Positions 2,617 to 4,339 of a stretch of 9,392 bases of DNA are shown in pieces. Each line of letters starts with the position of its first letter. Position 1 is the stretch's first letter. Source of the stretch: JACRDV01 sp024860865 [NCBI: Methanobacteriota archaeon] (GTDB lineage Archaea; JACRDV01); NCBI GenBank assembly GCA_024860865.1, contig JACRDV010000110.1, forward strand, positions 1-9,392. Reading direction: 5' to 3'. The translations under genes were made by a program, and so were the position numbers. Below the pieces are notes generated by a model. That model did not search any database, had not been told where the DNA came from, and was given only the letters and a program-made list of their open reading frames with translations.

Positions 2617-2870
2617 GAGCTTACAAGTCATTTGTGACTCAGTCCCTAAGCTGCCGCTCCTCCCGCAGTGAAAGTGCAAAGCGAGTCTGGGAGGAGTAAG
2701 GCTTTTTCCCCTGTGCTCCTGTGGAGAAAAGAGGCAGTGAATGGCCGAGTAAAGACACCAACCTCGAAAGCATCCGTAAGCACTGAAGCGGACCTGCGCC
2801 TCCGGCAACGGAGCGAGTTCTTGAAGTGGTGGATGCCCAATGCTTTATTTAGCGTTGGGAGGAAGTCCCC
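2617..2870 (+). ncRNA. Structured non-coding RNA candidate, family not recognised
   Basis: This block has about 56% G+C (counted over 2641-2870) between very AT-rich flanks, the usual mark of a stable RNA gene in an AT-rich archaeon. Stems readable on the plus strand: 2618-2623 with 2647-2652; a small hairpin 2626-2630/2635-2639; CTGCC 2651-2655 with GGCAG 2733-2737, enclosing CTCCTCCC 2657-2664 with GGGAGGAG 2689-2696 and a second arm of CTTTTTCC against GGAGAAAAG; CGAG 2746-2749 with CTCG 2763-2766; a long arm GCATCC 2770-2775 with GGATGC 2831-2836, CACT with AGTG, and CTCCG-GCAA-CGGAG at 2800-2813 (a GNRA tetraloop); and CCCAATGC 2836-2843 with GCGTTGGG 2852-2859. Junctions are purine-rich, which favours the plus strand. 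Short open frames here look like chance. I found no RNase P or SRP signature, no tRNA shape and no riboswitch I know. The 3' end is uncertain: it could reach the T run at 2929-2933. Confidence 0.6.
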
Positions 2871-3007: not shown

Positions 3008-3083
3008 TAAGTTCTTTGGTGAATAGAGTAACTAGCTAAAAAAATTTAATTTAGTTCTTCTTGAACAAGTGAAAAAATACAAA

Positions 3084-3088
3084 GGTGA
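3084..3088 (+). promoter_or_regulatory. GGTGA ribosome binding site deciding the dcd start
   Basis: GGTGA lies 4 bases before the ATG at 3093-3095 and inside the reading frame that would begin at GTG 3069. Its position argues that translation starts at 3093, not at the GTG. Confidence 0.45.
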
Positions 3089-3092
3089 ACAG

Positions 3093-3653
3093 ATGGCCAA
3101 AATGTTATTTGATTTTGAGATAGAAGATGCAATCAAAAAAGGGCTAATAAAAATTGAGCCATTTGATGGGGAAAAACAACTGCAACCAGCCTCGATAGAC
3201 CTTAAACTAGGTTATCGCATAAGATTTTATAAAACGCTATCTATCCCTTACATTGATGTGAAAAATGCGAACATGGAAGATTACACCGAAGAATTAGCAG
3301 TCCAAGATGGCTTTATCTTACATCCAAATCAAACCATTCTAGCATCTACGCTTGAATGGATCGAACTATCGCCATATATTGCTGGAAAAATTGATGGCCG
3401 AAGTTCGGTGGGCAGATTACAAGTCAGAGTTCAAAATGCTGGCTGGATTGACCCAGCTTTTCGAGGAAATATTACATTGGAACTGAAGAATGACGGATTA
3501 GTCCCAGTGAAACTTTATCCTGGCATGAGAATTTGTCAATTGAGATTATGGCAAAGCGATAAACCTTGTGAGAGACCCTACCGGGGTAAATATCAAGATT
3601 CGAAAGGAACAGTCGGTCCTAGGTTATATCTTGATTTTACTGATTCCGAGTAG
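3093..3653 (+). CDS. dcd: dCTP deaminase (possibly bifunctional dCTP deaminase/dUTPase)
   Basis: The enzyme deaminates dCTP to dUTP, or to dUMP if bifunctional, feeding dTMP synthesis in the cytoplasm. With the ATG at 3093 it has 186 residues, close to the family norm. The trimeric dUTPase-like fold is marked by LQPASIDLKLG (about 30-40), the FILHPNQTILASTLE strand, DGRSSVGR (about 101-108, with the conserved Arg-Ser-Ser), AGWIDPAFRGNITLEL (about 116-131, where Glu130 of ITLEL matches the catalytic glutamate), PGMRICQL (about 143-150) and a C-terminal YRGKYQ segment that closes over the nucleotide. An upstream GTG at 3069 adds eight residues not usual in the family; another ATG at 3102 gives the more typical N-terminus but has worse ribosome-site spacing. 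It stands alone between its own promoter and a hairpin terminator. Bifunctionality cannot be settled by eye. Confidence 0.93.
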   Translation: MAKMLFDFEIEDAIKKGLIKIEPFDGEKQLQPASIDLKLGYRIRFYKTLSIPYIDVKNANMEDYTEELAVQDGFILHPNQTILASTLEWIELSPYIAGKIDGRSSVGRLQVRVQNAGWIDPAFRGNITLELKNDGLVPVKLYPGMRICQLRLWQSDKPCERPYRGKYQDSKGTVGPRLYLDFTDSE

Positions 3654-3689: not shown

Positions 3690-3718
3690 CTTAAAAAAGC
3701 TATAGCGCGCTTTTTAAG
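3690..3718 (+). terminator. Hairpin with U-rich arm after dcd
   Basis: CTTAAAAAAGC (3690-3700) pairs with GCTTTTTAAG (3709-3718) through about 10 base pairs with one bulged A and an eight-base loop. The 3' arm carries a run of five T. It lies 36 bases after the dcd stop and well before the uL16 gene, so it plausibly ends the dcd transcript. Confidence 0.45.
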
Positions 3719-3832
3719 GATAAAGTATATTAGAAGTTAAATCAATGCATTTAGTCCAAATCTAACCAAAGTGAAATAGTAGCAAAATACTTTAGATATT
3801 AAGATGAAAATTATACTTAAGGAGGCAGAAGA

Positions 3833-4339
3833 ATGGGCGAAAGACCAGGACGTTGCTACAGTGAAGTGCGCGATCGGGCATACACTAGAAGGGAATTCAT
3901 GCCAGGCGTTCCAGGGCTCAAGATAGCCCAGTTTGATATGGGTGACCCTTCAGGGTCATTTGATTATAAATTATCGCTAATTGCAAAAGAAAAATGCCAA
4001 ATTAGGCATAATGCCATCGAGGCTGCTAGAGTTGCAGCTAATAAATACCTACTTAATAAACTTAAGACTGGATACCATTTAAAGATTAAAATTTATCCGC
4101 ATCACATCCTCCGTGAGAACAAAATGGCTACTGGGGCTGGCGCTGATCGAGTTCAAGTTGGTATGAGACTGAGTTTCGGGCGCCCAATTGGAACAGCAGC
4201 TAGAGTTAAAAGTGGTGATGAGTTAATTACATTACGAGTTAGTAAAGAACATTTGATTTCTGCAAAAGAAGCTTTGCGCAGAGCAGTTGCAAAGTTTCCA
4301 ACGCCATGCTCAATTATTGTTGAAGAATTAAAGCATTAG
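3833..4339 (+). CDS. rpl10e: Large ribosomal subunit protein uL16 (archaeal L10e)
   Basis: This protein of the 50S subunit sits near the peptidyl-transferase centre and tRNA elbow. It has 168 residues, normal for archaeal and eukaryotic L10e. Typical segments are the N-terminal RPGRCY and [21 protein letters not shown], the helix [12 protein letters not shown], the [23 protein letters not shown] loop region that reaches toward the P-site, and [15 protein letters not shown]. The start is clear: GGAGG at 3821-3825 lies 7 bases before the ATG, the strongest ribosome site in the window, as expected for a highly expressed gene. A promoter probably lies in the AT-rich spacer 3720-3810 (for example TATATTAG near 3727), but no single box stands out. 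It heads a tight run of five genes, with PEP synthase starting 15 bases after its stop. Confidence 0.97.

Follow-up and report, generated by a model that had tools for sequence, protein, structure and literature searches.

The GC-rich island described here is probably, at odds of about three in four, a free-standing gene for an omega RNA (reRNA) of the TnpB type, one copy of several, residing on a non-autonomous transposon of the IS200/IS605 type, a reading drawn from comparison of sequences. TnpB enzymes, which are related to CRISPR-Cas12, use such an RNA as the scaffold of their guide. The island belongs to a repeat family that has a left end in common with TnpA and TnpB elements and a covarying structure that includes a pseudoknot; it has relatives in another archaeal phylum, and the flanks examined hold no tnpB. 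The window, meaning the whole 9,392-nucleotide stretch that was analysed, comes from a methanobacteriotal genome (G000) of 1.54 Mb in 160 contigs, 92% complete.

The island, its setting and its fold

A preliminary description of this DNA had placed a structured RNA in a gap of some 600 bases between divergent genes. The gap is there: it measures 604 bp, separates a minus-strand ORF of 621 residues (CARDB, MG2 and DUF11-like domains) from a plus-strand ORF, and holds a stem-rich island at about 2607-2869 on the plus strand. The jump in base composition was likewise correctly seen, though the figure of about 56% G+C over some 250 bases comes down to a measured 54.3% at 2617-2870, against 37.7% for the whole window and 26.6% for the remainder of the gap (outside 2609-2870). 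This segment tops the G+C of all 254-base stretches of the window, and the runner-up clear of it reaches 48.8%. The TATA-like box said to precede the first stem corresponds to a predicted TTTATA, about 25 bases before position 2617, at which that description began its RNA.

599-2464, minus: left neighbour ORF with CARDB/MG2 domains
2590-2595, plus: TATA-like box TTTATA, predicted from sequence only
2607-2869, plus: putative omega-RNA-like scaffold, the body of a non-autonomous element whose left end is missing (covariance model, pseudoknot table)
2607-2612, plus: first stem, 5' strand GUACUG, partner 2640-2645, 5/6 pairs (pairing)
2634-2639, plus: pseudoknot 5' strand GUGACU, inside the first-stem loop (pseudoknot table)
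2640-2645, plus: first stem, 3' strand CAGUCC (pairing)
2651-2737, plus: central domain, closed by CUGCC/GGCAG; fold uncertain here
2752-2822, plus: long arm (AAGA 2752-2755/UCUU 2819-2822, CUCG 2763-2766/CGAG 2814-2817, GNRA hairpin 2800-2813)
2836-2859, plus: right-end hairpin CCCAAUGC/GCGUUGGG (copies and covariation counts)
2864-2869, plus: pseudoknot 3' strand AGUCCC, the scaffold end; GGUCAC in most relatives (pseudoknot table)
2870-2887, plus: putative guide stretch, placed by position, should the RNA act as an omega RNA
3069-3653, plus: right neighbour ORF, dCTP deaminase-like
Locus L089, 222-1433: TnpB ORF of the C48 element (other members of its clade at L111-L114)

All the stems named in the preliminary description are present (2651-2655/2733-2737, 2657-2664/2689-2696, the GCAA-capped hairpin 2800-2813 and 2836-2843/2852-2859), but its drawing missed the 5' stem 2607-2612/2640-2645 and the pseudoknot 2634-2639/2864-2869. 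The central domain, which contains the 8-bp stem 2657-2664/2689-2696 and a CUCC-UGU-GGAG hairpin, is variable and is largely missing from the relatives in the other phylum. Folding of the single sequence, which had been proposed as a check, did not bear the structure out: on neither strand was the energy better than that of 200 dinucleotide shuffles (z -0.35, with 64/200 as good, and z -1.16, with 27/200). As stability alone does not go beyond chance, the stems needed outside evidence, and the relatives supplied it.

Searches for a known family agree with the view that the island is a structured RNA of no recognised family, a view to which covariation among relatives also speaks. When the window was scanned with cmscan for all 4,227 families of Rfam, with E up to 10, six matches came back, none near its gathering score; the families covered include RNase P, SRP, introns, HEARO and sotRNA. 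The sole match at the island was SECIS_4 (E 9.4), covering 21 bases at the island edge; ARAGORN found nothing in the window, and Rfam searches of six related loci gave only a tRNA-like match at E 0.76. RNase P, suggested by the window ending in GGAGGAAGUCC, was set aside, as in the preliminary description: the window has no such Rfam match, and the copies have not retained the motif. SRP RNA is ruled out as well, since the SRP RNA of this genome sits elsewhere, on contig C152. A conserved reading frame, named at the outset as a finding that would speak against an RNA, is itself made less likely by indels of 1 and 2 bases among the copies. As a separate observation, archaeal RNase P RNA (RF00373) was found nowhere in G000 at E<=10, while 13 of 14 control genomes were positive; either a missing contig or a divergent RNA may lie behind this.

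The repeat family and its transposon ends

When positions 2600-2900 were used as a blastn query, 11 matches were found in G000, the window included; 60 further genomes of the domain gave none. A covariance model (R1) built on six rows, all from G000, recovered seven copies there at E<=0.01, again with the window among them; six of the seven are model rows and the seventh, C18, is not. The genome also has fragments of the family. The window copy scores 290.5 bits, its own row being part of the training set. With the best copy, C106, as query, the flanks match too; the copy (about 491 to 49, minus strand) shows an element of about 440 bp. Several copies are incomplete: C108 runs off its contig, C106 itself lies 49 bp from a contig end, and in C15 and C149 an internal deletion has brought the left end next to portions of the right end. 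The element body aligns among copies up to GGTCAC, after which they diverge. An intact element begins with a left-end palindrome after TTTAT or TTTAC, followed by a CTTTCGGTGACCTC-like conserved motif and a promoter-like box rich in A+T. The body then runs from a 5' hairpin through a stem with GUGACC in its loop, the variable central domain and the long arm to the right-end hairpin, and closes with GGUCAC; no tnpB lies inside the element. On contig C87 (L031), partial copies at 2184-2290 and 3699-3847 flank a 378-codon ORF whose cysteine motif looks, by eye, radical SAM-like; the arrangement could reflect gene capture or two separate insertions.

The left 181 bases, used as query, led to further loci, among them a tnpB-like ORF on C48 (a 404-codon open frame) and a tnpB fragment on C37. 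Family searches of G000 found one Y1 transposase, on C7, and ten TnpB-domain matches, five of which lie above the cut-off (C48, C114, C147, C130, C29). The C7 TnpA passes NF033573 (IS200/IS605 transposase; 119.2, cut-off 55) and the C48 TnpB passes NF040570 (RNA-guided endonuclease TnpB; 177.9 bits, cut-off 100). The C106 left end is 86.6% identical to that of the C48 TnpB element over 112 bp and 85.0% identical to that of the C7 TnpA element over 60 bp; one left end is thus common to the C7 tnpA, the C48 tnpB and the RNA element, and the genes follow it. At eight of nine loci, C109 being the exception, TTTAT or TTTAC stands 1-2 bases 5' of this conserved left end, which agrees with the way IS200/IS605 elements integrate, on the 3' side of a short, fixed target, for example TTGAT or TTAC (PMC8612924). 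Subterminal palindromes are present as well: the right end is an 8-bp hairpin with two-sided changes, and the left-end palindrome CCATTTGC/GCTGATGG was read by eye and carries no score. By these marks the C106 repeat, with a left end as in TnpA and TnpB elements, is a non-autonomous IS200/IS605-type transposon, and the window copy is one that has no left end.

The five above-cut-off TnpB matches in G000 are all on contigs free of RNA copies recognised by the model; the copy on C135 has a sub-threshold match (15.3 bits) about 5.7 kb away. The C48 TnpB may be the partner of the RNA, to judge from the shared left end. In an alignment on what we take to be the position of the RuvC-II catalytic Glu, this protein has Gly, as do all five clade members aligned (C48 with G135, G078, G157 and G242), while 11 other TnpBs have Glu. 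TnpB clades with RuvC-II rearrangements are on record, and one such ortholog still cleaves DNA, according to the portion of PMC10278001 at hand; for that reason the activity of the C48 protein is not to be judged from its Gly, and the clade possibly has a rearranged or a lost active site. A second tnpB-type repeat occurs in this genome at contig ends (L090, L091 and L096, on C114, C147 and C50), the C114 and C147 copies being 96% alike over 376 bp.

Omega-RNA-like architecture, covariation and relatives

The C106 body reads CAGGGCUGG-(hairpin)-UUUGUGACCCAGCCC ... CCCAAUGC-loop-GCGUUGGG-AGGAGGUCAC, and the end of the C48 element reads CAGGGCUG-UUUGUGAACCAGCCC ... ACUGGC-UUUA-GCCAGU-AGGUAGUUCAC. 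The right-end hairpin closes the body, whose terminal six bases pair with the first-stem loop, forming a pseudoknot. Both traits are those of omega RNAs: the ISDra2 structure has a pseudoknot between scaffold positions -6 to -2 and -102 to -106 (PMC10097598), and the survey of diverse omega RNAs in PMC10278001 describes a hairpin within 10 nt of the scaffold 3' end as the one feature that nearly all of them retain. The window copy, with its hairpin ending at 2859 and its scaffold at 2869, likewise pairs its terminal bases back to the 5' segment. Ten sequences from seven genomes, picked by eye among those in which both strands could be named and including three from tnpB elements, pair in all six positions in nine cases, the window pairing in 5/6; this table leaves out C32, C47b, the partial copies and most weak matches. 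The variants are GUGACC/GGUCAC, GUGGCC/GGUCAC, GUGGCC/GGCCAC, GUGAAC/GUUCAC and GUGACA/UGUCAC, with GUGACU/AGUCCC in the window, so that pair 4 occurs as A-U, G-U or G-C, pair 5 as C-G or A-U, and pair 6 as C-G, A-U or U-A. Two decayed copies lack the pseudoknot: C32 pairs in 3/6 positions, and C47b lacks the 5' strand.

In sequence the body resembles the C48 omega-RNA region only modestly, to a degree reached by 4/1000 (strict) or 9/1000 (loose) shuffles. At 261-263 nt the body is about twice as long as that of C48 (138), and its centre has no counterpart there; processed omega RNAs of 79-466 nt are known from the consulted part of PMC10278001. At the loci examined the RNA is not encoded at a tnpB 3' end, and it is therefore described as working like an omega RNA and not filed as a standard member of that class.

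The inner structure covaries too. In alignment A2, which holds four near-full rows out of the seven G000 model matches, 88.0% of cells pair across the 31 pairs of the structure, and eight pairs show a two-sided change, a number that none of 500 shuffles reached (mean 3.1) and that compares with 0-2 for slid versions of the structure; the structure was drawn partly from the tested sequences, which favours it in this count. Two of the eight pairs (columns 51/286 and 54/283) stem from the strand lost in C47b, and the others are partly single-copy; with that strand judged lost, six is the safer count. Alignment A5 has seven rows, with G154 and two partial copies in and C18 out, and places the window row one base off in the first stem, which counts against the window; over its 42 pairs, the pseudoknot left out, 89.2% of cells pair and eight pairs again change on both sides (0/500 shuffles, mean 3.2; slid versions 0-4). 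RNAalifold gave zero pairs on the ragged alignment A1 and 53 on A2, five with a two-sided change, in a fold that agrees only in part with the structure as drawn, and the modelled fold of the central domain is uncertain. The search for relatives and covariation that the preliminary description called for thus came out in its favour, with two-sided changes above shuffles among the copies and across phyla.

Compared with C106, the window copy has five changes in 62 paired columns and 20 in the 169 others; three pairs are changed, two of which still pair, and 30 of 31 counted pairs stand, the first stem (5/6 pairs) being excluded from this count. Paired columns changed number 17/60 in C32 and 16/57 in C47b. 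The window copy starts within the 5' hairpin, the element's left end being gone, and its right-end bases are altered (AGUCCC, where most relatives have GGUCAC). For these two reasons it is probably immobile, and it looks like a copy that still keeps its fold.

Model R1, run over 247 genomes, found unaided one locus outside G000, in G154 (E 6.8e-7). A second model that includes G154 (R2), run on 28 genomes of that phylum, matched seven of them at E<=0.01. Full-length matches are those of G154 (163.4 bits, a model row), G247 (149.5) and G248 (107.9 and 77.9), the last two genomes not being in the model, and the rest score 15-22 bits, mostly at the right end. By sequence, then, there are full-length relatives in three genomes (G154, G247, G248) of another archaeal phylum. 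A search of 394 genomes of the domain at E<=0.001 gave matches in five (G000 and G154, and weakly G246, G362 and G365); here, as in the R1 run over 247 genomes, the filters were stricter and only a few candidates per genome were scored, so that absence is soft. Matches of 15-25 bits turned up in G078, G246, G228, G256, G362 and G365, and G247 and G248 have some of that strength besides their full-length loci; these seem to rest mostly on the right end and are set apart from this RNA.

The 110 or so bases upstream of the RNA contain the motif GGTGACCTCTC and a TATA-like box (GATATAAC) in both G154 and G247; the two G248 loci begin near a contig end (76 and 41 bases after it). In G154, the 16 bases GGTGACCTCTCTCCCC stand upstream of both a tnpB fragment and the RNA element. 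Searches by tblastn with four TnpB sequences found none in L130-L144 nor in five further weak loci, and the ORFs beside the four full-length loci match ordinary Pfam families in seven cases of eight and none in one. The preliminary suggestion of a lineage-restricted RNA, and the idea that it stands alone, find no support in these results, as the copies are dispersed and transposon-borne, have full-length relatives in the other phylum and end in the architecture of a TnpB omega RNA. At the G154 locus (L104, 1818-2108) the element adjoins a 97-codon cation-efflux ORF, as if a gene had been interrupted or truncated. Elements in G246 (L134, L138, L142-L144) and G365 (L147, L149, L151, L153) combine right ends of a similar kind (GGGGAGGAGGTCAC; GGGGAGGAAGTCAT or GTCAC) with different hairpin-rich bodies; tblastn found no TnpB at them, and they are perhaps more RNA-only families.

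A scan for the pattern GTGAAAGTGCAAAGCNAGT returned six genome-contig records, none alike in place beyond about 21 bases, and no viral contigs; the pattern lies in the domain missing from the other phylum, so that the scan was unable to find those relatives. Two further viral scans gave one match, whose surrounding ~300 bases bear no resemblance, and none, and the plasmid and phage collections gave no match.

Competing readings and known systems

Were the island such an omega-RNA gene, transcription of the RNA would start at the gene's own promoter and run on into the flanking DNA, and the first bases past GGUCAC would serve as the guide. A TnpB from elsewhere in the cell would bind the RNA and act at the emptied donor site, and a TnpA supplied in trans would mobilise the element. 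A wider proposal, put forward tentatively and at slightly worse than even odds, is that of a long-lived RNA-only class of IS200/IS605 elements in at least two archaeal phyla, in which a promoter-driven omega RNA is the sole gene and TnpB acting in trans, perhaps from the clade with the changed RuvC-II residue, maintains the copies; guide RNA and nuclease would then be separate genes that spread independently.

An unlikely alternative makes the repeat nothing but a transposon fossil, a transposase-free IS605 relic of the PATE kind whose hairpins serve TnpA as single-stranded DNA and whose body is inert cargo with no RNA function. Many copies are truncated or internally deleted, C32 and C47b have several broken pairs, and the consulted part of PMC3119063 describes core deletion as the origin of PATEs. 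The inner helices, however, lie away from the ends and covary together with the pseudoknot, between phyla too, and in G154 and G247 the RNA is preceded by a TATA-like box and the same left motif. It is improbable that an IS605-type element has acquired a structured RNA of some other role, independent of TnpB, given that the 3' end is the transposon end and that the omega-RNA pseudoknot sits there with covariation common to three tnpB elements, even if low sequence similarity to the C48 omega RNA, the lack of a tnpB alongside and retention across two phyla would suit such an RNA. The immobile look of the window copy, its well-preserved fold (30/31 pairs; five changes in 62 paired columns) and its location in a divergent promoter region would fit recruitment by the host as a gene-control guide RNA, compare TldR-type regulators; we regard this as very improbable, since a search of G000 with the putative guide at 2870-2887 found other sites no more often than chance would give (two with 3 mismatches; the reversed pattern had one).

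If the omega-RNA reading is true, a tnpB-less element with a conserved scaffold and its own promoter would mean that guide RNA and TnpB can uncouple and act in trans, and some transposase-free IS605 relics would be candidate guide-RNA genes and not mere palindromes. The work also yields a testable RNA-TnpB pair and a covariance model with which further cases can be sought. The open-access PMC titles and abstracts returned by literature searches describe no TnpB-type omega RNA on a tnpB-less element with its own promoter, which is weak evidence of absence.

Guide-RNA loci away from the nuclease gene have a precedent in the IscB omega RNAs of Ktedonobacter, which are encoded apart from iscB; there the nuclease is IscB and not TnpB, and the guide lies at the opposite end of the RNA. 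In architecture the RNA resembles the ISDra2-type TnpB omega RNA, whose scaffold stops at the right end of the transposon, with a hairpin no more than about 10 nt away and a pseudoknot between the terminal bases and a 5' segment (PMC8612924, PMC10097598, PMC10278001). The studied TnpB omega RNAs overlap the tnpB 3' end and are cut from its message, whereas here there is no tnpB and a promoter-like box lies upstream; the RNA here also has a larger central domain and little sequence similarity to the ISDra2 type. The haloarchaeal sotRNAs or omega RNAs (RF02656, RF02657) are likewise archaeal and linked to IS200/IS605 elements, but in the consulted part of PMC12558985 they sit in sense inside tnpB genes, and the present loci match no Rfam family. 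The palindrome-associated transposable elements (PATEs) of Haloquadratum are alike in being transposase-free, in their IS605-type subterminal palindromes and in their core deletions; the portion of PMC3119063 at hand mentions no RNA gene in them, whereas the cargo here is a conserved structured RNA.
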